DNA from: Verrucomicrobiales bacterium | Lineage (GTDB): Bacteria; Verrucomicrobiota; Verrucomicrobiia; Verrucomicrobiales; DEV007 | DNA: 32,338 bases | NCBI GenBank assembly: GCA_029233965.1 | Contig: JARGOP010000036.1 | Span: forward strand, 1-32,338 | Direction: 5' to 3' | Shown: piece by piece, positions 4,618 to 17,630 of the stretch | Layout of the letters: each line of letters opens with the position of its first letter | How positions within the stretch are numbered: position 1 is the first letter of the stretch | The notes under the pieces: generated by a model | Database searches by the model: none | What the model was told of the DNA's origin: nothing | What the model saw: only the letters and a program-made list of their open reading frames with translations | Translations under genes and position numbers: made by a program

Positions 4618-7101
4618 ATGTCGCCCCTCGACTATCCTGTTTCGACGATTGATAATCCTCTTCGTGTTCGCGGAAAATTTTTCTGTTCGGGCGATGAGGT
4701 TATCTTCTTGAAAAGCGTGACCTTCGGCCCGTTTCCGGCCGGCTCGTTTCCTGATGAGGGAATCTGCCAGTTGCGGGCGATTCGTGAGGAACTCGGAGCG
4801 AATGCGATTCGGGTCTACGAGATTCCGACGCTCCTCTTCATGCATGAGTGCGCCCGCTATGGCCTGCGGGTCTTTATCACGCTGCCGTGGTCGCAGCATG
4901 TTGACTTCACGAAAGAAACCGGGGTGCTCGCCGGGGCGGATCAATTGCTCCTGGAGACGATCAACCGGTTCCGCGGGCATCCCGCGCTGGGAGGGTATTT
5001 TATCGGGAACGAGATCGAGACGACCCTGGTCCGCTGGATGGGAAAACGGCAGGTCCTCGAGCAGCTTGAACGTCTCATCGATCTCGGTCATGCGAACGAC
5101 CCTGGCGCGCTTTTCGCTTACGCGAATTATCCGAGCACCGAGTATTTGCTCCCGCGGAATCAGGACTTTGTGGCCTTCAATTTGTATCTCGAAGATCGCG
5201 AAAGTCTCGCCGCCTACCTGCGACGGCTCCAGAATCTCTCGGGCGATAAGCCGCTTTTGATTTCCGAATTCGGCGTCGATTCCAGCACTCACGGGGAAGA
5301 GAAGCAGGCGGAAATGCTGAACTGGCACGTCGAGGAAGCCTGTCGCGCGGGGGCGGCGGGGACGACGGTGTTTGCCTGGTCCGACCTCTGGCAGCGCGGG
5401 GGGAATACGATCGAGGAGTACAGCTTCGGAATGAGGCGTCGGGATCAGTCCTCGAAGCCGTCGATGGCGAGACTCAAGGCGAAGTGGTCGCCCCTGCAGC
5501 GCGGCTCGGATGAACTGCCTCTCGAGACGACACCGAAAATGTCGGTCATTGTCTGCTCCTACCGGGGCAGCGCGACCCTGGTGGAATGTCTCGATTCCCT
5601 TGCCAATCTGGACTACCCGGATCTTGAGTTGCTGCTCGTGAACGACGGGAGTGATCAGCGGGTTTCGGAACTGGTGGCGAGCTATGGGGGGATTCGGGAA
5701 ATCGCAATTCCTCATCTCGGCTTGAGCGCGGCGCGCAACGTCGGGGCGGAGGAGGCGACGGGCGACATCTTTGTTTACACGGATGACGACTGTATTGTGG
5801 AGCCGGACTGGCTGCGGTGGATCGCGCATCAGTTTGCCTCCGGTGATTCGATTGGCTGTGCGGGAGGGCCGAATATTCCACCGGTGCCGACGTCGGCGAA
5901 GGCGGCGTTGATCGCAGCCGCTCCGGGAGGTCCGACGCATGTTCTCCTGACGGATTCCAAAGCAGAGCACCTCCCGGGATGTAATTTTGCGGTTCGGCGC
6001 GATGTCTTTGCAAAAGTCGGCGGCTTCAATCCTGTCTTCCGCACCGCAGGAGATGACGTGGACTTCTGCTGGCGGGTCCTCGAAGCCGGCTACGATCTGG
6101 GCTTTCACGCCGCCGCCTTTGTCTGGCATCATCGCCGTTTTACTTTCCGGACCTATTTTCGGCAACAATTAGGCTACGGGAAGGCTGAAGCGATGCTGAT
6201 GCCAATGCACCGTGACCGTTTCAAAGGACTCGGCGGAGCAGTATGGAAAGGACAGGTCTACACAAGTCGGTCACCGGTAAACAGCTTCGTTTATCACGGG
6301 CAGTATGGCTACGAGCCCTTCCAACTGATCTATCCGGACGGGAATCTCGGGATGAGTGAGGTCTGTCTGCATGTGGTCTGGTGGATTTTTATCCTCGGTC
6401 TTCTCGTGGGCGGGATGTTTTCCCCGTTTTGCCTCCTCCCTGCCGGACTCATGATTTTTGGAAGTCTTCTCGTGGCTCAAAAAAGAGCATGGCGGGTTCG
6501 CATTGATCCAGCGCACGACAAGGCGAGAGCGAGATTTGCGGTGGCCGGTCTTGTTCTGCTGCAGAGTTTCCTGAGGAGTGGAGCCCGGCTCGTGCTGGGG
6601 TGGAAAGAGGCCAAATGGTCCCGGGGGCTCGAAGTCGTCACCACGGCAACCTGGAGAAAGGTCGCTTCAGGGTGGTGGAAACTCGGGAGCGAAAAGACCT
6701 TCTGGAGTGATGACGGGATCACTCGTGACGATCTCCTCGAAAGCTTGAAGATCGAATTTCCCCGCGCGGAAGTTGATGAGACAGGGAAAACCGATTTAAT
6801 CCTCTCAAAAGAGCTGCTTTGGAACTGGGCGGTGATCACAGTGACGGAATATCACGAAGAAAACGGAAGGCTAACCCGCGTTCGGCTTCTTGCCCGTCCT
6901 GAGCCTGTTTCGAGAATTCTCGCTCTGCCCCTGTTGATCGGCACTCTCATTGCCGTTGGATTTGGATGGGGGCTGAAAAGCGAATTGCTGACCCTCGGTG
7001 TTCTCGGAGCGGCGGTATTTCTCTCCTCGAAAATTTTCATCAGGTCTCGATTGCCGAAAGTTGTGCGATCCGCCGCCCGGGTCGGACTTCGCCCTGTTTA
7101 A
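4618..7101 (+). CDS. Fusion of glycoside-hydrolase-like TIM barrel and GT2 glycosyltransferase, membrane-bound
   Basis: 827-residue two-domain protein. Residues about 10-290 resemble GH2/GH5-type barrel glycosidases: N131-E132 (GNEIE) fits the acid/base position and E217 (ISEFG) the nucleophile, so both catalytic glutamates look intact. Residues about 307-520 form a family 2 glycosyltransferase, with a nucleotide-binding start (MSVIVCSYRG), DDD at 389-391 for metal/sugar nucleotide, and GDD at 478-480 as the likely catalytic region. Hydrophobic segments near 583-620 and 767-805 suggest four membrane helices, placing the GT domain at the inner membrane. There is no signal peptide, so the barrel probably stays cytoplasmic. 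Presumably it makes or edits a cell-surface polysaccharide; the substrate is unknown. It stands alone and its stop overlaps the convergent neighbour. No Shine-Dalgarno sequence precedes the ATG. Confidence 0.85.
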   Translation: MSPLDYPVSTIDNPLRVRGKFFCSGDEVIFLKSVTFGPFPAGSFPDEGICQLRAIREELGANAIRVYEIPTLLFMHECARYGLRVFITLPWSQHVDFTKETGVLAGADQLLLETINRFRGHPALGGYFIGNEIETTLVRWMGKRQVLEQLERLIDLGHANDPGALFAYANYPSTEYLLPRNQDFVAFNLYLEDRESLAAYLRRLQNLSGDKPLLISEFGVDSSTHGEEKQAEMLNWHVEEACRAGAAGTTVFAWSDLWQRGGNTIEEYSFGMRRRDQSSKPSMARLKAKWSPLQRGSDELPLETTPKMSVIVCSYRGSATLVECLDSLANLDYPDLELLLVNDGSDQRVSELVASYGGIREIAIPHLGLSAARNVGAEEATGDIFVYTDDDCIVEPDWLRWIAHQFASGDSIGCAGGPNIPPVPTSAKAALIAAAPGGPTHVLLTDSKAEHLPGCNFAVRRDVFAKVGGFNPVFRTAGDDVDFCWRVLEAGYDLGFHAAAFVWHHRRFTFRTYFRQQLGYGKAEAMLMPMHRDRFKGLGGAVWKGQVYTSRSPVNSFVYHGQYGYEPFQLIYPDGNLGMSEVCLHVVWWIFILGLLVGGMFSPFCLLPAGLMIFGSLLVAQKRAWRVRIDPAHDKARARFAVAGLVLLQSFLRSGARLVLGWKEAKWSRGLEVVTTATWRKVASGWWKLGSEKTFWSDDGITRDDLLESLKIEFPRAEVDETGKTDLILSKELLWNWAVITVTEYHEENGRLTRVRLLARPEPVSRILALPLLIGTLIAVGFGWGLKSELLTLGVLGAAVFLSSKIFIRSRLPKVVRSAARVGLRPV

Positions 7102-7532
7102 GCGTCTTTTGCTCCGATCAGGCTGACCACCAGCCGCCGATGATGGGGAGCAACGCGGTGCTCGAAGAGGTAGACCCCCTGCCAGGTCCCGAGCGCGAGC
7201 CTTCCCTCGTGAATGGGAATGACTTCGCTGGTACGGGTAAGCGCCATGCGCAGGTGACTGGGGCTGTCGTCGGGACCTTCATAGGTGTGAACCAGAAACG
7301 GAAGATTTTCCGGCACAAGATAGTCAAAAAAGGAATGAAGATCCGTCCGCGCCTCGGGGTCGGCGTTCTCCATAATGACGAGGCTGGCGCTGGTGTGCTG
7401 GACAAAAACCGTGAGCTGGCCGGAGTGAATCTTTGATTTCAGGACCAGATCTTTCAGTTCCCGCGTGATTTCGTAGGTGCCTTTTCCGTTCGTCGGAACG
7501 GCAAATTCGCCGGTGTGAGTCTCAAGGTTCAT
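7098..7532 (-). CDS. YjbQ/UPF0047 family protein
   Basis: 144-residue single-domain protein of the YjbQ (UPF0047) family. Family signatures are clear: HTSASL at 46-51, NADPE at 56-60, PSHLR at 91-95 and GTWQGVYLFEHR at 115-126, with conserved histidines and acidic residues that may form a metal or phosphate site. Some members have been reported to show weak thiamine-phosphate synthase activity, but the physiological role of the family is not settled, so no gene symbol is given. Length is normal and the start is the conserved ATG. Its TAA stop overlaps the TAA of the convergent glycosyltransferase gene by four bases, so neither gene has room for a private terminator. Confidence 0.92.
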   Translation of the reverse strand: MNLETHTGEFAVPTNGKGTYEITRELKDLVLKSKIHSGQLTVFVQHTSASLVIMENADPEARTDLHSFFDYLVPENLPFLVHTYEGPDDSPSHLRMALTRTSEVIPIHEGRLALGTWQGVYLFEHRVAPHHRRLVVSLIGAKDA

Positions 7533-7627
7533 GGAATGGTCTTATCAGGTTAATCTTTCAGTTGAGTGAAGGAAATGAGAAATCAAATCAACTTGTCGTG
7601 GTTTTTGTGGTTGCCGCTCCCCCAAGA

Positions 7628-7638
7628 TTGTGTCACAA
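7628..7638. promoter_or_regulatory. Perfect 5-bp inverted repeat (possible operator) upstream of the TolC-like gene
   Basis: TTGTG-T-CACAA is a perfect 11-base inverted repeat about 80 bases ahead of the start codon, in the gap between divergent yjbQ-family and tolC-like genes. A second palindrome, TCGTACGA, lies at 7654-7661. The size and location fit an operator, but no regulator can be named. Confidence 0.3.
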
Positions 7639-7672
7639 AGAACGTTAGGTGCGTCGTACGAGTGTTATTTTC

Positions 7673-7694
7673 GGTCCCGGTGAGGCCCGGGACC
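7673..7694 (+). promoter_or_regulatory. Strong hairpin in the 5' leader of the TolC-like gene
   Basis: GGTCCCGG and CCGGGACC form a perfect 8-bp GC-rich stem with the six-base loop TGAGGC. It ends 22 bases before the ATG at 7717 and is not followed by a T-run, so it does not look like a classical terminator. In the leader mRNA it could affect translation or stability. This is inferred from sequence only. Confidence 0.5.
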
Positions 7695-7716
7695 CCACTG
7701 GGACAGCACACTTACC

Positions 7717-10230
7717 ATGAATTTTTACGCAAGACTGAGAAGCTTAAGCTCTTCGCTCACCATCCAGTTTTGTCTCTTTATCGTCTTGACGGTTGGACTT
7801 CAGGGACAGGAGGAAACCAATCTTGAGCGGAAAGGCCTCTTCATGAGGATTTTTTCAGGGGACGGCCAATCGAACTTCGCCGGACCCTTGGATCATAAGA
7901 CCGTTCACGACGAATACATGGATCGGGAAACCGACACGATTTCGGCGTTGGTTCAGGAGGCGACCGATGGGTTGCAGCGCGAGAATGATCCGGTTGAGCG
8001 CTTTCCGCACATTCCCGGTTACCTCACAATCAAGAACACTCCCCAGAAGGACATCGAGAAGTTGATCGAATCAATTTACGAGGCTTACGAGGCGCGCATC
8101 AACAAGATGGATCCGCCGGATCTTCGAAGTGCCAGGATCATGGCGATGGGACATGTCCCATCGGGTTTTCCCACCGCCTGGAAAGGTCGTGCCAATTCCC
8201 CTGTCTGGCCGGATCAGCGCACCGTGCATCAGGGGATCGACGACGTATACTCCCGAACGCTTGAATATTCGAATCAGGTGAAAGTCCTTCGTGATCTTCC
8301 GTTGATTCGCGAGACAGGGATGCAGGAGGCCGATGGGGAATTCGACATGGAGACTTTCCTTGAGGGACGTCTCATCCGCACGAACGAAGCAATCGGGTCC
8401 ACCCTGACGACGGGGAATACTGCCCGCCGCTTTCGAGAGAATCAGGATTATCTTGAGGGGGGATTTCGCAAGAAGTTCTCGACCGGAACCGAAGCCACGA
8501 TTTCGAACCGGATTTCTACGCTGAGCAACAATTCAACTTTCCTCACTCCGCAGAACCAGGGGGCCTCCGAGTTAGTCCTCTCGGTGGTTCAGCCTCTTCT
8601 TGAAGGGAACGGCTACCACTACAATCAATCCAAGATCAAGCTTGCGAAGTACGACGCGAGTATGGATTCCGCTGAGTTTGTTCGTCAGTTGCAGGAGCAC
8701 CTGATCGAGGTGAACCGGGCTTACTGGGCACTCTATTATTCCCGTTCCTACTACATTCTCATCCAAAGGCTTGTCGATGACACCGAATCGATCCTCGGGC
8801 AGTTGGAGCAGCGCTCCGATCTTGATGCCCTGCAGAGTGAGGTTCTCCGGGCACGCTCTTCCGCAGCAATGCGCAAGGCAATGCTGAGTCGTGCTGAGAT
8901 GGCGATCCGCAACAGCGAGGAGAGACTGCGCGCGCTCGTGAATGATCCGAATCAGGACATCGGTTCCAATGCCGAATTGGTGCCGGCGACACCACCGATT
9001 ATGACCCGTTATGTCGACGGGGTTCAGAGGGTTGCGTCCGATGCACTGAGGAACCGTCCCGAAATCCAGCAGGGTTTCGATCAACTCAAGGCGGCGATTG
9101 TTCGCCGTGACATGCAGAAAAACGAGAAGCTTCCCACCTTGAATCTTGTTGCTGAAATGATGTTGAGTGACATCGAGCCTAATGATGGAGTAGGGAGGGC
9201 TTTCGACGACCAGTTTGGAGCCGGAACCGGATACAATCTTGGATTTCAGTTCAGCCAGCCGCTCGACAACGACACGGATCGCGCCCAGTTGCTTCGCAGC
9301 GAAATTGAGCTTCGTCAGCAGGCGAACCGTCTTCGCTCCACGATCGACCTCGTTCTCCTCGAGTCGATTGTTTCCTACCGCGAGCTGATGACTGCTTATC
9401 GCGACATGCAGGGTCGCTACTCCGCGTTGCAGGCTTCGCGTGAAGAACTTCGCCAGCTCCGGGATCGACTTGAGGTCGATACGGAAGACGAGGGAGGTAG
9501 AACAACGGCGTCCCAGTTGCAGCTGATTCTCGATTCCATGGATCGCAACCAGACGGCTGAGGAAATGTTCCTGGATTCAGTGGTTTCTTACAATGCCTCT
9601 TTCGCCGCTCTTGAGCGTGCCCGTGGAACCTTCCTCCGCACTGAAAATGTGGAGATCAAACGTGTTCGCGAGAGCGATGACACCCATCCGGGAGAAGAGC
9701 TTGAGTCCCTTAAGGTAACCAAAGGAAACGGGATTGACAAGGGAGGGGAATCCTCCGGCTACTTTAATTCCTATCCGGACCAGGGTGAAATCCCCGATGT
9801 TCCGGAGATGGCGGATTTTGAGCTCCCTTCCCGTGATGGGGATGTGTCTTTTGCTTCCGGGAACGGAGATGCGGGAATGTTTGAGGAAGGTGCCGAACTT
9901 CCTTCTGCTTCGGTTGCTCCGGTGGAGAATAAAGTGGGGGCGACTCCGATGGCAGCAGCCCGGCCTGCGGCGGCAGCTCGACCTGCGGCTCCCAAGCCCG
10001 GGCCTGCTCCGGCAGTGGCACCACCGGCTCCGGTCACCGAGGTAGTGGTGGCTTACTCGGCACCGGCACCTTCTGCCTCAGTAGCAAGCTCTTCAGCGCC
10101 ATCCAGCGCTCCAGACCGTACCCGGGAAACGCCTGCGATCCGCATTCAATCGATGCCGCATCGGGGGGCGCGAACGCAGACGGTTCAGATTGTTCCTGCG
10201 GCAGCGGCTCGCCCGGTTTCCTCCAACTAG
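7717..10230 (+). CDS. TolC-family outer membrane protein with long N- and C-terminal extensions
   Basis: 837 residues against about 420-500 for typical TolC/OEP proteins. An export signal is visible at the N-terminus: basic MNFYARLR, then a hydrophobic stretch to about residue 28, with probable cleavage near GLQG-Q. An unrecognised region follows to about 200. Residues about 270-640 look like the outer-membrane efflux fold: heptad-rich helices, the recurring tyrosine/leucine pattern (VNRAYWALYYSRSYY), the NRPEIQQ motif that marks the second OEP repeat, and strand-like segments. Residues about 670-837 are low-complexity Ala/Pro/Ser, unusual for a TolC. The gene starts a rightward cluster with a SecA-like ATPase and a periplasmic adaptor. 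Its likely role is the outer-membrane duct of an export machine. An ATG at 7717 fits the signal peptide; there is no Shine-Dalgarno sequence. Confidence 0.85.
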   Translation: MNFYARLRSLSSSLTIQFCLFIVLTVGLQGQEETNLERKGLFMRIFSGDGQSNFAGPLDHKTVHDEYMDRETDTISALVQEATDGLQRENDPVERFPHIPGYLTIKNTPQKDIEKLIESIYEAYEARINKMDPPDLRSARIMAMGHVPSGFPTAWKGRANSPVWPDQRTVHQGIDDVYSRTLEYSNQVKVLRDLPLIRETGMQEADGEFDMETFLEGRLIRTNEAIGSTLTTGNTARRFRENQDYLEGGFRKKFSTGTEATISNRISTLSNNSTFLTPQNQGASELVLSVVQPLLEGNGYHYNQSKIKLAKYDASMDSAEFVRQLQEHLIEVNRAYWALYYSRSYYILIQRLVDDTESILGQLEQRSDLDALQSEVLRARSSAAMRKAMLSRAEMAIRNSEERLRALVNDPNQDIGSNAELVPATPPIMTRYVDGVQRVASDALRNRPEIQQGFDQLKAAIVRRDMQKNEKLPTLNLVAEMMLSDIEPNDGVGRAFDDQFGAGTGYNLGFQFSQPLDNDTDRAQLLRSEIELRQQANRLRSTIDLVLLESIVSYRELMTAYRDMQGRYSALQASREELRQLRDRLEVDTEDEGGRTTASQLQLILDSMDRNQTAEEMFLDSVVSYNASFAALERARGTFLRTENVEIKRVRESDDTHPGEELESLKVTKGNGIDKGGESSGYFNSYPDQGEIPDVPEMADFELPSRDGDVSFASGNGDAGMFEEGAELPSASVAPVENKVGATPMAAARPAAAARPAAPKPGPAPAVAPPAPVTEVVVAYSAPAPSASVASSSAPSSAPDRTRETPAIRIQSMPHRGARTQTVQIVPAAAARPVSSN

Positions 10231-10236
10231 CAGGTA

Positions 10237-10281
10237 GGCTCCCCTTCAGGTGGGAGTCACTGCGACAGGGCAGCCTGTTTT
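10237..10281 (+). terminator. Two short hairpins between the tolC-like and secA-like genes
   Basis: The 66-base spacer holds GGCTCCC/GGGAGTC (10237-10258, one G-T pair, 8-base loop) and then ACAGG-GCAG-CCTGT followed by TTT (10265-10281). The second resembles a weak intrinsic terminator or a partial attenuator, which would lower expression of the downstream secA-like gene relative to tolC. It is too short to be sure. Confidence 0.35.
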
Positions 10282-10296
10282 GCGCAAGCCATTCCC

Positions 10297-12258
10297 ATGG
10301 AGAAAGTCTCTTTCAGACGTCAATATGATCGCTCCGGCTTCCTGAAGGGGCTTGTCAGGCAGCGCTGGGATGCTCTGACCGGCGGAAGCCTCCGAAAGTC
10401 TGATCTCGAGCGCCTTGCTTCCATCAATGGAGTGGCGGACGCGGTAAAGGCGCTTTCCGACGATCAGATTCGGGCGCGGGTCAGTCAGCTTCGTGAATTG
10501 ATTGTCTCGGGGAAGAAAAAGGTCGACGAGATTGTGGAACCCGGCTTTGCTCTGCTGAGGGAGGCTTCGTGTCGGACGACGGGACTATTTCACTACGACG
10601 AACAAATTCTGGGAGGTCTTGCCCTCGTGAAGGGCGGGGTTGCCGAGATGGCGACCGGTGAGGGGAAAACCCTCGCCGTCAGTCTTCCGGCCTTTGTGTT
10701 CTCCCTCTCGGGAAAGGGGGTCCATGTCGTGACGGTGAACAGTTATCTTGCTGCGCGGGACTACGAATTTTCGAAGCCGATTTTCGATTATCTGGGGATT
10801 TCGATCGGCTTTCTTCCGGAGGGGAAAGAGGCGACTACGGAGAAAAAGAGAGCTGCTTATGACTGCGACATCACCTACGGGGTGGGCTACGAGTTCGGCT
10901 TCGATTACATGCGGGATCAGCTTTCCAGGATGAGACATCCCGGCGGAGCACCCGGTGAAGACCTGCGCTATGCGATTCTGGGTCGCGAAAAGCCCATTCC
11001 CGAGGTTTGCCAGCGAGGTCTCAATGTGGCGATCATCGATGAGGTCGACAGTGTTCTTATTGATGAAGCGGGGAGTCCGCTGCTGATCAGTGAGGCGTCC
11101 TCGATGGGGGAAAGTTCGGAGAAACCTTTTTACGAGGCCCGGGATCTTGCCCGCCGCTTGATGGAGAGCGATCATTTCACGTTGGATCGCAATCGTCGAA
11201 AGATCGATTTCACTTCCGAGGGAAAGCGTGAACTGTTTCGTGATGACTCGATCATTCCGTGGGATGATCTTCGCCGTCCCTGGGAGACCTATGTCTTGAA
11301 TGCCCTCAAGGCGGAGCATCTGTTTTTCCGCGATGAGCACTACGTGGTCGAGGATGACAAAGTAGTGATCGTTGATGAGTTCACGGGCCGCCGTTTCGAA
11401 GATCGCAGTTGGAGAGAGGGCCAGCATCAGGCGGTCGAGGCAAAGGAGGAGGTCGAAATCAGACCGGAAGCGGATTCGGCGGCGAGCATCACCCGTCAGC
11501 GCTTCTTTGCGCTCTACGATACGATTTGCGGTCTCACCGGAACCGCGGCCGAAAGTGCCGGTGAATTTTGGCGCTTCTTTCAAATGCCGGTGGCACCCGT
11601 GCCGCTGAACCGGCCCAGTCAGCGGAAAATCCTTCCGGAGAGGATCTTCGTGGATCATGACGCAATGGATGAGGCGGTTGCGCTGGATATCGCAGGCCGC
11701 TATGGAAAGGGGCAACCTGTCCTCGTGGGGACGCGAACGATCAAAGACAGTGAGCGGTTGTCGGCGAAACTTCACGAGTTGGGGCTTCCTCACCGGATTC
11801 TCACCGCGAAGCAGGATGCTGAAGAAGAAGAGATCGTGAGTGGAGCGGGGCAGTCACGGAGCATTCTTATCGCGACCAACATGGCGGGGCGGGGCACGCA
11901 TATTGACCTCTCCGCAGCAGCAGAGCGTGCCGGCGGGCTCCATGTCATTGCGATTGAGCGAAATGAGTCCGTGCGGATTGATCGGCAGCTGATTGGCCGG
12001 GGGGCCCGCCAGGGGCAGGCGGGATCGGCGCAGTCTTTTGTCTCGGCGGATGATTACCTCCTGCAAATTTATGCTCCCGAAACGGCCGCTCAGTTGAAGG
12101 AGATGAGGGCAGACGAAAAAGGCGAGTTGCCGGGGAATCTGAAACGAGTTTTTGATAAAGTTCAGTCTGAGGTTGAAGTTACCCGATACGAGATGCGTCT
12201 CCGCATGGCGGAACGCGATGAATGGCTCGAGCAAACCAAAGAAACCCTCGCACGATGA
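10297..12258 (+). CDS. SecA-like translocase ATPase, C-terminally short
   Basis: 653 residues against roughly 830-1000 for housekeeping SecA. The motor is intact: the Q-motif-like segment near 100 (FHYDEQILGGLAL), Walker A MATGEGKT at 118-125, DEAD-like IIDEVDSVLIDEA at 247-259, the cross-linking-domain stretch about 222-365 with the conserved VIVDEFTGRR, GLTGTA at 412-417, NMAGRGTHIDL at 528-538 and the arginine-finger motif QLIGRGARQGQAGS at 564-577. Only about 65 residues follow, enough for the beginning of the long scaffold helix but not the wing domain, two-helix finger or zinc tail of canonical SecA. It therefore looks like an accessory motor, not the cell's main SecA. Its stop overlaps the start of the adaptor gene (ATGA), so the two are coupled. 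Partner channel and cargo are unknown. Confidence 0.9.
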   Translation: MEKVSFRRQYDRSGFLKGLVRQRWDALTGGSLRKSDLERLASINGVADAVKALSDDQIRARVSQLRELIVSGKKKVDEIVEPGFALLREASCRTTGLFHYDEQILGGLALVKGGVAEMATGEGKTLAVSLPAFVFSLSGKGVHVVTVNSYLAARDYEFSKPIFDYLGISIGFLPEGKEATTEKKRAAYDCDITYGVGYEFGFDYMRDQLSRMRHPGGAPGEDLRYAILGREKPIPEVCQRGLNVAIIDEVDSVLIDEAGSPLLISEASSMGESSEKPFYEARDLARRLMESDHFTLDRNRRKIDFTSEGKRELFRDDSIIPWDDLRRPWETYVLNALKAEHLFFRDEHYVVEDDKVVIVDEFTGRRFEDRSWREGQHQAVEAKEEVEIRPEADSAASITRQRFFALYDTICGLTGTAAESAGEFWRFFQMPVAPVPLNRPSQRKILPERIFVDHDAMDEAVALDIAGRYGKGQPVLVGTRTIKDSERLSAKLHELGLPHRILTAKQDAEEEEIVSGAGQSRSILIATNMAGRGTHIDLSAAAERAGGLHVIAIERNESVRIDRQLIGRGARQGQAGSAQSFVSADDYLLQIYAPETAAQLKEMRADEKGELPGNLKRVFDKVQSEVEVTRYEMRLRMAERDEWLEQTKETLAR

Positions 12259-13097
12259 AAAGACTGATTTCGACTTTCGTAGTTGCCACGTTTTTGATGT
12301 TCCCCGTGAAGGCCGATCCGGGCACGGTGCTGGGTTATCTCGAGCCTTACCGGAGCATCGATATGGATGTCGCTGAGGTGGGGGTGATCGGGGAAATTTT
12401 TGTCGAAGAAGGGGAACTTGTGGATGAAGGCGAAGCCCTCCTGAGCCTGAATAACAGCGTCCTTGAAGCTCAGTTGGAGATTGCGAGGATTCAGTCCGAG
12501 AGCGTTGCTGCGGTGACGGTTGCCCAGGCTGACCTTGAGGTGGCGGATGATCGGTACTCCAAGCTGTCCAAGCTTCGCTCCAGCGGAACCGCGCACTCTT
12601 CCGAGGTCGCGAGAGCATTGGCAGAGAAAAAGAAGGCTGAGGGCCAGCTCAGTATTGCGAACGAGGAAAAAAAGATTGCCGGATTCCGGGTTGAGGAAAT
12701 TGAGGCACAGATTGAGAAACGCTTTCTGCGAAGTCCAATCCGGGGGATCGTTTTAGAAATCAACCGGGATGTGGCAGAGACGGCGGCGGCTTCCGGAGGA
12801 GGCCCGGCGAAGCCGCTCGTTCGGGTGGCCCGGATTGACCGGCTGAAACTGGTCGTGCATGTCCCGGCGTCGAGAGCGGGACAGCTCCAAAAGGGAAAGG
12901 TAATGCCGGTTCGAGTGCTTCAGCAGAGCAGTTTGACTCTTGATCGCGAAAATTCTGCGATTGACACAACGGGCATGATCGAATTTGTATCGCCCGAGAT
13001 TAACCCTTCAAGTGAAACGATCAGAACCCGACTGGTTCTGGAAAATGCGGACGCAGCATTGCTCAGTGGAAGCCATGCACTCGTTTTGTTCGAGTGA
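12255..13097 (+). CDS. Small HlyD/RND-type periplasmic adaptor (membrane-fusion protein)
   Basis: 280 residues. A signal peptide (MKRLISTFVVATFLMFPVKA) is followed directly by the mature adaptor. The first half of the biotinyl-lipoyl-like fold spans about 38-66 (GVIGEIFVEEGELVDEGEALLSL), an alpha-hairpin coiled coil about 67-155, the second lipoyl half about 156-176 (LRSPIRGIVLEI), and a beta-barrel region from about 195. Such adaptors bridge an inner-membrane motor or pump to a TolC duct. No inner-membrane pump gene is adjacent; instead the ATG lies inside the stop codon of the SecA-like gene. The start at 12255 was chosen over an upstream in-frame GTG because it begins the signal peptide and gives the four-base overlap. 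Short for the family, which suggests a minimal adaptor. Confidence 0.88.
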   Translation: MKRLISTFVVATFLMFPVKADPGTVLGYLEPYRSIDMDVAEVGVIGEIFVEEGELVDEGEALLSLNNSVLEAQLEIARIQSESVAAVTVAQADLEVADDRYSKLSKLRSSGTAHSSEVARALAEKKKAEGQLSIANEEKKIAGFRVEEIEAQIEKRFLRSPIRGIVLEINRDVAETAAASGGGPAKPLVRVARIDRLKLVVHVPASRAGQLQKGKVMPVRVLQQSSLTLDRENSAIDTTGMIEFVSPEINPSSETIRTRLVLENADAALLSGSHALVLFE

Positions 13098-13144
13098 CTT
13101 TGCCTCGTTTCGAGAGATCGCGACAATTGAATTTGTATTTTAGT

Positions 13145-13405
13145 ATGGCTGATTTTGTTTCAACGACGAACGGTAAGATTGTGAATGTCGACGCGATTGC
13201 CTTTTTGACATCGCGCCAACCCGCCGCCGAAAAGGCGGCTTCGAAGAAGCAACTCATTGTCGGGTTTTCATCATCTGCCACTGGCAGCGAGGGCGGCTTG
13301 ATCCCGTTGTCGCTAGTCCTTGAGGCGGAGGAGGCCACAGACTTTCTTGACCAACTTGGCAGCCGCGGTGTCGATGTCGCCGCGCTCAGGAAAAAGATCG
13401 GGTGA
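13145..13405 (+). CDS. Small protein of unknown function, last gene of the SecA-like cluster
   Basis: 86 residues from the ATG at 13145; an alternative GTG at 13094 would overlap the adaptor's stop by four bases and add 17 residues. The protein is soluble with no signal peptide or membrane segment. It begins with a strand-like stretch (FVSTTNGKIVNVDAIAFLTS), has a Lys/Ala-rich middle, and ends with a helical, acidic segment (LEAEEATDFLDQL). I do not recognise a family. Its position immediately after the adaptor suggests co-expression with the export genes. An AT-rich run (TTGAATTTGTATTTT) just before the ATG could instead be a separate weak promoter. Confidence 0.6.
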   Translation: MADFVSTTNGKIVNVDAIAFLTSRQPAAEKAASKKQLIVGFSSSATGSEGGLIPLSLVLEAEEATDFLDQLGSRGVDVAALRKKIG

Positions 13406-13410
13406 GCCCG

Positions 13411-14997
13411 CTACTTTCGTGGCGGCAAAAGGTAACACGCTGCCTCTTGATCATTTCTCACGAGGAGAAATCTTCCCGCCACCGTGGGAACGTTCCAGGT
13501 CATGCTGCTGAGAGCTTCGAGGCGTGAGGTTTCTTCAAATCCCTCCGGACCGATGTGACCGGCAATCACCGGCCCGCGCTCCGTTTGCACGAGCAGTTCA
13601 TCCCCGAAGAGGAGTTGCTGTCCGAATCCGACCTTTTGATTCTTCCACGCTTTGCTGCCATCGGACAAGTGGATGGAGGCGAGACGTCCCTCGTCAATGC
13701 CATACGCGTAGTCTCCGATGATGAAAGAAGTGCTGAATTTTGTCTTCATTCTCGTCGACTTCCACAACTGCGAAACTTTCCAGGCACCGGTTCCGTCCTG
13801 CTTCACTTCAAGCAGGGGGCTGCCAACGCCATAGCTCGCCGTCACGAGGACGAGGTTTTCGCCGGCGGAGACGGGCTGGCCGACCTTCGGAAAACTGCCC
13901 GGCCAGTCGTACTTCCAGAGCAGTTCGCCGGATGCCGGAACATGGCCTGTGACATCCTTTTGGTTGACGCTCACGATCATCGTGGTTCCGCCAATCTCCA
14001 TGAGGCGCGGAGAACTGTAGCTGGCACCATCACCCCGGTAGACCCACCGGTCGGTTCCCGACATCAGATCAAAGGCCACGAGCGTTGCGCCGGTTTTATC
14101 CGATCCCGGCACGACGACAAGGCCGTCTTCCGCAATGATCAGCGCAGCATTTGCGGAGCCCCATTTCTGGACCTCCCCGTCAAAATCTGAAATGACATTT
14201 CGAGTCCAGATTTCGTTCCCGGTGGCAAGGTCGAGGCAGTTGAGAATCCCGGTGGCACCGAGGGCAAACACGTTATTTTCGTCAATGACAGGGGTCGACC
14301 GCGGACCGTCTCCGCCCATAGCGGCTCCCTGATTTTCCTCCTTCACGAGGAGGAGTCGCGTCCCCGGGTTGTCGTGTTTCCAGATTTCGTCTCCGGTAAA
14401 AAGGTCGAGACAGAGAACCCGTTCCGCATCCGCTGCCTGCTCCTGAGTCACGGCATAGTGCCCCTTCACGGCGAAGCCGGACCATGCCTTGCCAACAGGG
14501 CGCCTCCAGAGTAACTCGGGAGGGTTTTCGGACCATTCCATGGAAAACGAGGCAGCGGGAAAGGTGCCGTTTCGATCCGGTCCGAGGAAGTCAGTGGAAT
14601 CGCCCATCGCGCGAACGAGACGCTCCTCTTCCTCACTCAAATCGGTTTGAACGAATTCACTGGGTTCATCCGCCCCTGAGTCTTCAGGCTCCCAGACCCA
14701 GGCGAGTTTGGGAAACGATGATCCGGAAGCGGATCCCTCGTAGCGGAGGAGCTGGCTCAGTATGAATCCGAGAACAAGGAACCCGCCAATCACCCCGAAA
14801 AAACGGGCAAGGCGTTTTCCAAACTGCACTCGTCCGAAGATGAGATGCCAGAGCCCGAACAGGAGCGCCCAGAGGATCACTGTTCCGACAAGGAACCAGT
14901 TCAAATAGGTCATTTCCTGAAGTTGGATCCAGACGTAAACCGCAGGGCCGAAGAGCGCGACGAGGCCTAAAGACGCGAGACGCAGAAAAGATTTCAT
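13411..14997 (-). CDS. Membrane-anchored PQQ-like beta-propeller protein
   Basis: 528 residues. Three hydrophobic helices occupy about 6-26, 31-55 and 64-84, followed by a long, probably periplasmic domain. From about residue 140 there are PQQ-enzyme-type propeller repeats, recognisable by units such as VLCLDLFTGDEIWKHD and LNCLDLATGNEIWTRN (DLxTGxExW). The family contains true quinoprotein dehydrogenases, BamB-like scaffolds and many proteins of unknown role. No cytochrome c motif (CxxCH) and no clear PQQ-binding catalytic site are visible, so a dehydrogenase activity should not be assumed. It is convergent with the small unknown gene (five bases between stops) and divergent from the AI-2E permease. 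The ATG start is supported by the immediate membrane helix. Confidence 0.85.
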   Translation of the reverse strand: MKSFLRLASLGLVALFGPAVYVWIQLQEMTYLNWFLVGTVILWALLFGLWHLIFGRVQFGKRLARFFGVIGGFLVLGFILSQLLRYEGSASGSSFPKLAWVWEPEDSGADEPSEFVQTDLSEEEERLVRAMGDSTDFLGPDRNGTFPAASFSMEWSENPPELLWRRPVGKAWSGFAVKGHYAVTQEQAADAERVLCLDLFTGDEIWKHDNPGTRLLLVKEENQGAAMGGDGPRSTPVIDENNVFALGATGILNCLDLATGNEIWTRNVISDFDGEVQKWGSANAALIIAEDGLVVVPGSDKTGATLVAFDLMSGTDRWVYRGDGASYSSPRLMEIGGTTMIVSVNQKDVTGHVPASGELLWKYDWPGSFPKVGQPVSAGENLVLVTASYGVGSPLLEVKQDGTGAWKVSQLWKSTRMKTKFSTSFIIGDYAYGIDEGRLASIHLSDGSKAWKNQKVGFGQQLLFGDELLVQTERGPVIAGHIGPEGFEETSRLEALSSMTWNVPTVAGRFLLVRNDQEAACYLLPPRK

Positions 14998-16350: not shown

Positions 16351-16391
16351 GGAGGAGAAACTCTCCACCTTCAGCGGGGTTTCTTTCGTTG

Positions 16392-17630
16392 ATGAAATTT
16401 TTCATTCTTCTCTCCGTTTTTTTGTCAGCTCTGGCTGCCTGTGGACAGGACGGGGCGGCTCGATTCGAGGCGCTATTTGAAAGGGTTGATACCAACAGGG
16501 ACGGCAAGGTTTCAAAGGAGGAACTCGGAGCTGCCGGTCAGCGGAGTGCCTGGTTGGAAAAAGCGGACCGCAATGGCGATGCTTTGGTGGACCGGGACGA
16601 ACTCCGCCGGTTTTTCCAGCGACCGGAACCCGGTGCTCAGGAGAAAAAGACTGTTGCGATTGAGGTGGTCCAGTCACACCCTCCCGAAGGCGAGGCCCCG
16701 GTGACGATGGAGGGAATTCGAGCTGCGGAAATCTACTCAGCGGACCGCGAAGGGCATAGTTTTCTGGTCATGATCGATGGGAAGACAGTCCATGAAAGCT
16801 ACGCCAATGGTTGGGACAGGATGGCGGGGCATCGCCTCGCGAGCGGGACCAAGAGTTTTTCGGGAGCCCTCCTTGCCCTCGCGGTGAAAGACGGACTCCT
16901 TTCACTCGACGAAGCGGTTTCCGCGACCATCACCGGGTGGAAACCGGATGACCGGCTCAGGACGATCACGATCCGGCAGCTCCTGAATCTGACCAGCGGA
17001 ATAGAACCGGGTGCAAATGGTAAGGTTCCTTCGTATGCCGAAGCGACGGAGGTCGCGGCGCTCTCGGGAGCGGGGGAAGCCTTTCGGTATGGTCCGAATG
17101 CCTTTCAGATCTTCGGGGAGCTGTTGAAGCGTAAACTGGAGGCTCACGAGCAGGTCGCCCCGGGTGACCCTTTGGCTTACCTTGAGGCGAGGGTCTTTGA
17201 TCGCATTGGCCTGAAATACACCCGGTGGCGCCGTGATGATGACGGGAACCCGCATCTTCCTTCCGGGGCCTTTCTCACCGCTCCGGAGTGGGCGAAATTC
17301 GGGCAGCTCCTCCTCCAAAAGGGGGAATGGGATGGAGAGGTGCTGCTGAATCCGGAAACGCTGGCGGAGGCGGTGCGGCCGCAGAATGACACGACCCCTG
17401 AATACGGGCTGACTTTCTGGCTCCTGGAGTCCGGGGTCGATGAGAGTAGACCCTGGATGAAGGGAAGTTACATGGCTGCCGGTGCCGGAAAGCAGCGTCT
17501 TTTCGTTCTCCCTGCCGTCGGTATGGTGATCGTGCGTCAGGGTGAGAGCCGGAAGTTTGAAAATATCGAATTTCTTGAGGCGCTGTTTTCGGTGGATTCC
17601 AGCGTCGCTTTTGTTCAGGATGGGGAATGA
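16392..17630 (+). CDS. Lipoprotein with EF-hand pair and beta-lactamase-fold serine hydrolase domain
   Basis: 412 residues from ATG 16392. A lipoprotein signal ends in LAAC with the lipidated Cys at 17. Two EF-hand loops follow at about 33-44 (DTNRDGKVSKEE) and 59-70 (DRNGDALVDRDE), both with calcium-ligand spacing. Residues about 105-405 form a beta-lactamase/class C-like serine hydrolase: SGTK at 151-154 supplies the SxxK nucleophile and lysine, YGPN at 233-236 lies where the YxN motif is expected, and RQLLNLTSGI (195-204) is a family signature. The substrate (ester, peptide or beta-lactam) cannot be told. The stop overlaps the following lipoprotein gene by four bases, so these are co-translated. 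Joining calcium-binding EF-hands to this hydrolase is unusual and could mean calcium-dependent stability or activity. Confidence 0.87.
   Translation: MKFFILLSVFLSALAACGQDGAARFEALFERVDTNRDGKVSKEELGAAGQRSAWLEKADRNGDALVDRDELRRFFQRPEPGAQEKKTVAIEVVQSHPPEGEAPVTMEGIRAAEIYSADREGHSFLVMIDGKTVHESYANGWDRMAGHRLASGTKSFSGALLALAVKDGLLSLDEAVSATITGWKPDDRLRTITIRQLLNLTSGIEPGANGKVPSYAEATEVAALSGAGEAFRYGPNAFQIFGELLKRKLEAHEQVAPGDPLAYLEARVFDRIGLKYTRWRRDDDGNPHLPSGAFLTAPEWAKFGQLLLQKGEWDGEVLLNPETLAEAVRPQNDTTPEYGLTFWLLESGVDESRPWMKGSYMAAGAGKQRLFVLPAVGMVIVRQGESRKFENIEFLEALFSVDSSVAFVQDGE

Follow-up and report, generated by a model that had tools for sequence, protein, structure and literature searches.

A Divergent Secondary-SecA Cassette in a Verrucomicrobiales Bacterium, with Giant LEPR-XLL Proteins as Its Likely Cargo

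The Cassette and Its Components

A compact four-gene cassette lies in the window analyzed here, a 32,338-nucleotide stretch of Verrucomicrobiales DNA (assembly GCA_029233965.1, contig JARGOP010000036.1, positions 1 to 32,338). It encodes a TolC-like outer-membrane protein, a SecA-like ATPase, a periplasmic adaptor of the HlyD/resistance-nodulation-division (RND) type, and a small protein. This order, together with an ATGA overlap between motor and adaptor genes, had been proposed from the letters alone (hereafter the sequence-only reading) and is confirmed by profile matches and by inspection of the sequence. By sequence, the cassette is classed as a divergent clade of the secondary SecA_DEAD family; what we add is its likely cargo, a group of giant proteins that begin with an LEPR-XLL domain. 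The four genes are as follows.

7717..10230, + strand: TolC/OEP-type outer-membrane protein, 837 aa (PF02321, OEP, E 1.8e-19)
10297..12258, + strand: SecA-like ATPase, 653 aa (PF07517, E 5.1e-90; PF01043, E 1e-25; PF21090, E 4e-43)
12255..13097, + strand: HlyD/RND-type periplasmic adaptor, about 280 aa (PF16576, PF13437)
13145..13405, + strand: small cassette protein, 86 aa, no family match

The TolC-type protein carries an N-terminal extension of about 240 aa, a Pro/Ala-rich C-terminal tail, and a likely signal peptide with an N-terminal 10-aa hydropathy peak of 2.85. The adaptor falls slightly below the family cut-off of TIGR01730 (E 3e-26). Its start codon shares the ATGA at 12255–12258 with the stop codon of the SecA-like gene, and translation from ATG 12255 yields an N-terminus that resembles a signal peptide; the start at 12222 in the list of open reading frames (ORFs) is too early. 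The small protein matched no Pfam family, and a relationship to DUF3467 was rejected (profile comparison probability 0.1%). Because its six homologues (52–88% identity) all begin at the position equivalent to ATG 13145, this start is preferred, with GTG 13094 appearing less likely. Promoter and terminator scans of positions 7500–13500 revealed no excess over shuffled sequence.

The SecA-like Motor

The ATPase aligns with residues 21 to ~610 of Bacillus subtilis SecA at ~39% identity. Conservation covers Walker A, the DEVD box, and the arginines of motif VI, with the key residues invariant across a 30-sequence alignment, and the ATPase motifs are by this measure intact. A predicted model (predicted local distance difference test, pLDDT, 85; predicted template modeling score, pTM, 0.83) resembles SecA (3jv2; Z 46.1, 587 residues aligned, root-mean-square deviation (rmsd) 6.2; 6itc, Z 46.0, rmsd 2.7) and Clostridioides difficile SecA2 (6t4h; Z 44.9). 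The protein comprises the DEAD motor and the preprotein cross-linking domain and terminates in the first scaffold helix: the SecA match stops near B. subtilis residue 610–613, an end common to the 30-member alignment, and SecA_SW gave no match at E 0.001. The helical wing, the two-helix finger, and the C-tail, which in SecA lie beyond this point, are all missing.

The SecA2 family cut-offs were not reached (TIGR04397, 558 of 1085 bits; TIGR03714, 446 of 930), and a canonical SecA is also encoded in the window's genome. In a phylogenetic tree, which took in no published sequences from PMC4452313, 65 SecA-like rows stand apart from five canonical SecA proteins (Shimodaira–Hasegawa-like approximate likelihood ratio test (SH-aLRT) support 100); the window type forms its own subclade of 23 rows (support 100), sister to the remaining SecA-like proteins (98). 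A second, partial SecA-like protein in the same genome (L068, G000:C73:9084-10235) belongs to the other, M50-linked clade; it shares 80% identity over 338 aa with its G014 homologue and has lost its N-terminal part near a contig end.

Unity and Borders of the Cassette

The cassette is bounded by two genes on the opposite strand, both outside it.

7098..7532, - strand: YjbQ-type gene (TIGR00149), left border
13411..14997, - strand: PQQ/BamB-like beta-propeller gene (PF13360), right border

In five further genomes of the same genus, the same four genes lie between the YjbQ and PQQ genes, whereas in six same-genus genomes devoid of the SecA-like gene, YjbQ directly adjoins PQQ with nothing between them. 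Since occupied sites carry all four genes and empty sites none, the TolC, SecA-like, adaptor, and small genes are, on comparative grounds, a single cassette that is gained or lost jointly, the small gene included. At other window-type loci, TolC is usually found upstream and the adaptor downstream of the SecA-like gene. The comparison of gene order across genomes, which the sequence-only reading had named as its own check, thus finds the genes kept together. Also kept beside the cassette site across the genus is a gene for an EF-hand and beta-lactamase-fold protein (16389–17630), which adjoins an AI-2E-type permease gene.

Candidate Inner-Membrane Partners

The sequence-only reading held that the system had no inner-membrane part. 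Within the window this stands, as a scan of the main ORFs turned up no ATP-binding cassette (ABC), RND, or major facilitator superfamily (MFS) pump; for the genome it does not, since a candidate is encoded on contig C51 in the second of two consecutive genes.

C51:61532-63436: GAF-like/HlyD protein (HlyD match clear; GAF E 0.0046, below cut-off)
C51:63439-65697: M50/HlyD membrane protein, directly after the GAF-like/HlyD gene

The M50 protein contains the motifs HEFGH and NPLMRFDGY. In an alignment of 15 sequences, HExxH and FD are invariant (H211, E212, H215, and D313) and the G is nearly so, and the catalytic motifs (HExxH, FDG) are accordingly read as intact. The best match of one M50 partner (L060) is the daptide intramembrane metalloprotease family NF041824 (E 7e-53, below cut-off). 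In a model of the M50 protein from IMCC26134, the N-terminal domain consists of three strands followed by three helices, an order that we would expect of PqqD-type leader-binding domains. Residues 11–105 of the M50 model match the end of GdmN (7vzq; Z 9.9, rmsd 2.5, 86 aligned) in a comparison dominated by the HlyD part. Two alphaproteobacterial M50 members match PqqD (PF05402) weakly, with E values of 1.1e-4 (22.8 bits, cut-off 23.4) and 4.5e-5 (24.1 bits).

The distribution of the M50-HlyD gene follows that of the SecA-like gene. Among the relatives, it is found in 26/27 SecA-like-positive genomes, a count that takes in the window's own genome, and in 4/30 negative ones (Fisher test 6e-11, shared ancestry ignored). 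In an even draw of 145 Verrucomicrobiota genomes, each at least 90% complete, M50 matches with E < 1e-190 are confined to the 12 that carry the SecA-like gene and occur in every one of them. An M50-profile scan of GTDB genomes returned 80 loci from many phyla, with a SecA-like gene nearby in 72 and GAF/HlyD in 75.

Giant LEPR-XLL Proteins beside the Machine

Among the genes that neighbor related loci are very long frames bearing Ig, cadherin, DUF11, or beta-helix repeats. Several of these frames begin with LEPR-XLL (NF012209), an already named NCBIfam domain and the motif that the proposed cargo carries at its N-terminus. The sequence-only reading had called for a search for recurrent extra neighbors and had named no cargo; these giants are such neighbors. 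The window's genome encodes one LEPR-XLL protein of at least 2,948 aa on contig C148.

In the co-occurrence counts that follow, the Fisher values again ignore shared ancestry. Across the phylum sample, LEPR-XLL is over its cut-off in 11/12 SecA-like-positive genomes vs 3/133 others (4e-13). Among the relatives, NF012209 exceeds its cut-off in 23/27 positive and 3/30 negative genomes (6e-9), and in those at least 90% complete the counts are 18/19 and 1/24. Within the genus, 19/23 SecA-like-positive genomes and 0/11 negative ones are over the cut-off. We regard this link between the SecA-like machine and LEPR cargo as a strong correlation.

Adjacency points the same way. By a count made by eye, an LEPR giant lies beside the SecA-like gene on the same contig at ~14 of ~38 loci. 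Beside the 80 M50 loci, an LEPR start was found at ~12, compared with 0–2 for permuted motifs; there were 14 matches, of which L180 and L193 look like chance and were excluded. LEPR exceeds the cut-off in 30 of 38 genomes checked from the M50 scan, with up to 42 matches (E ≤ 1) per genome. On alphaproteobacterial plasmids (Pseudosulfitobacter, Mesorhizobium, Pontibrevibacter, Methylosinus, and Alisedimentitalea), a giant LEPR gene clusters with HlyD, M50, and SecA-like genes; the Alisedimentitalea giant has no LEPR from its annotated start, but the motif is present upstream of that start.

The longest LEPR frames reach 18,544 aa among the relatives and 20,466 aa in the phylum sample. Frames of 16,801 to 20,466 aa (G004:C57, G108:C142, and G111:C1) are among the longest bacterial frames. 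Two further families recur around the module. A SapC-family gene is found at L121, L155, L160, L166, L168, L170, L171, L174, and L177, which are alpha- and betaproteobacterial loci plus one labeled Akkermansia. A DUF3467 gene, often right after the giant, lies near M50/HlyD at the proteobacterial and Nitrospirota loci L122, L123, L128, L129, L130, L182, and L192.

The LEPR leader was examined in 48 distinct sequences gathered by a motif filter that fixes several motif positions by design. No leader in this filter-selected set departs from the Glu and Arg of LEPR, and the residues around the motif follow E-x-L-E-P-R-[VIL]-L-[LFY]-S-[AG]; the stretch in front of it has a median length of 35 residues and a net charge of +5. 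The median hydrophobic peak of the leaders is 1.24, vs 2.34 and 2.85 in the cassette's own signal peptides (adaptor and TolC), as judged by hydropathy only.

Proposed Export Machine and Alternatives

We consider it probable that the cassette supplies the duct, motor, and adaptor of a secondary-SecA export machine whose main cargo is the LEPR-XLL giants, with M50/HlyD and GAF-like/HlyD as its other parts. The idea that a SecA-like motor serves a TolC/HlyD-type export route, first raised by the sequence-only reading, has gained ground, as the genes belong together and point that way. In the proposed mechanism, the basic LEPR leader, having no strong hydrophobic core, would bind to the PqqD-like domain and probably be cleaved at the M50 site. 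The SecA-like ATPase would thread the unfolded chain, which may cross the inner membrane through the M50 assembly or SecYEG, and the HlyD-type adaptors and TolC-like duct would form a conduit over the envelope to the surface. What the sequences themselves establish is the gene content, the intact ATPase and HExxH motifs, the unity of the cassette, the co-occurrence, and the adjacency; that the leader is recognized and cleaved, that the route is a single step, and that the parts touch or form a physical complex is inference. More tentatively, and with somewhat less than even confidence, we suggest a distinct pathway in many Gram-negative phyla that would combine the LEPR-XLL leader, PqqD-like binding, an M50-HlyD cut, a finger-less SecA motor, and a TolC duct for giant surface proteins.

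Several points weigh against the proposed machine. All of its support is correlation, and the Fisher tests take no account of shared ancestry. With no two-helix finger in the motor, it is hard to see how it would push. The PqqD call is weak and confined to alphaproteobacterial members, PF05402 being unmatched in the M50 protein of the window's own genome, and no PqqD structure is among the matches listed in the fold comparison of the M50 model. Four SecA-like-positive relatives have no LEPR over the cut-off (three are <90% complete, one 91%). In Thalassospira marina (NZ_CP024200.1, L130), a row of LEPR-XLL, DUF3467, HlyD, M50, adaptor, and TolC genes occurs with no SecA-like gene on the 908-kb plasmid. 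The C-terminal pieces of 4/6 alphaproteobacterial giants contain RTX repeats, which characterize ordinary type I secretion. Finally, the cargo gene and the partners lie on other contigs than the cassette in the window's genome.

The strongest alternative, which we nevertheless judge unlikely, is a two-step route in which the SecA-like protein acts as an accessory SecA2 on SecYEG and delivers LEPR proteins to the periplasm, with TolC and the HlyD adaptors acting separately afterwards. Such a role would suit a protein near SecA and SecA2 in sequence and fold (Z 44.9 to 6t4h) that retains the preprotein cross-linking domain. It is harder to square with the absence of wing, finger, and C-tail from the window protein and with a truncation shared by all 30 aligned members, with leader hydrophobic peaks weaker than those of the cassette signal peptides, and with the constant pairing of the SecA-like gene with M50-HlyD and GAF/HlyD.

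Quite improbable, in our estimate, is that the LEPR giants leave by an ordinary ABC type I system via C-terminal RTX-type signals while the cassette serves another purpose and merely co-occurs in large-genome biofilm formers. The alphaproteobacterial RTX repeats fit this scheme, as does the reported presence of RTX and serralysin domains in an LEPR-XLL giant from Vibrio (PMC10868602), but the C-terminal pieces of the verrucomicrobial giants examined show DUF11 or beta-helix and no RTX, LEPR directly adjoins SecA-like and M50 genes in several phyla, and none of the 11 same-genus genomes devoid of the SecA-like gene has LEPR over the cut-off. That TolC and the adaptor are an ordinary efflux set with its pump elsewhere and the SecA-like gene an unrelated neighbor is extremely improbable, for although HlyD/RND adaptors are common in efflux and the window scan revealed no pump gene, the four genes are jointly present or absent at one site and the SecA-like/HlyD pairing recurs in many phyla (80 M50 loci; PMC4452313).

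Relation to Known Systems

Secondary SecA_DEAD proteins without SecA_SW, adjoining HlyD, OEP, M50-HlyD, and GAF-HlyD genes, were described by Kamneva, Poudel and Ward in 2015 (PMC4452313). The sequence-only reading had presented the cassette as a candidate undescribed system that would be a new combination; because such loci had already been reported, that claim is given up. The 2015 authors proposed that a SecA-type ATPase takes the place of the ATPase of an ABC transporter and M50 that of its pore, called the role of these loci completely unknown, and named neither cargo nor LEPR leader in the main text. Our search, in which subscription journals and preprints were not covered, found no later work on the secondary SecA locus, and no paper linking the LEPR-XLL domain to an export machine was found in the literature searched. 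The window type shares with the 2015 loci the SecA_DEAD protein devoid of SecA_SW, the HlyD adaptors, the occasional OEP, the M50-HlyD partner, and a patchy distribution over phyla, and the GAF-like/HlyD protein on C51 is a candidate for the GAF-HlyD partner. It differs in forming a separate clade, in its TolC-SecA-HlyD-small order, and in having its partners on another contig. The adjacent M50-HlyD gene of the 2015 type is absent from the window and present on C51; this does not exclude the window from that type, as an M50-HlyD gene away from the SecA_DEAD locus is reported for some genomes there too.

Type I secretion (HlyB-HlyD-TolC) resembles the proposed machine in its HlyD-type adaptor, TolC-type duct, and large repeat-protein cargo. 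The cassette, however, has a SecA-like ATPase instead of an ABC transporter, and the proposed signal is N-terminal rather than C-terminal. The window proteins that were scanned include no ABC transporter motor, a search that did not extend to partner ABC genes in the rest of the genome. Canonical SecA and SecA2 share the DEAD motor and preprotein cross-linking domain, but the window protein ends before the wing, finger, and C-tail and groups in a clade separate from canonical SecA. Tripartite RND, ABC, and MFS efflux pumps differ in requiring an energized pump, of which the scanned window ORFs hold none. M50 proteases of daptides and other ribosomally synthesized and post-translationally modified peptides, with PqqD-type leader-binding domains, are reminiscent of the M50 partner and of the PqqD-like N-terminus in some of its members; here the M50 protein is fused to an HlyD adaptor domain, and the proposed cargo is giant proteins, not small peptides.

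Implications

Now that a cargo family can be named and its N-terminal leader defined, the role of SecA-type loci becomes directly testable. If the proposal is true, it suggests how proteins that rank among the largest predicted in bacteria exit the cell despite their weakly hydrophobic leaders, and a SecA-type motor would join the known means by which Gram-negative bacteria energize TolC-type ducts.

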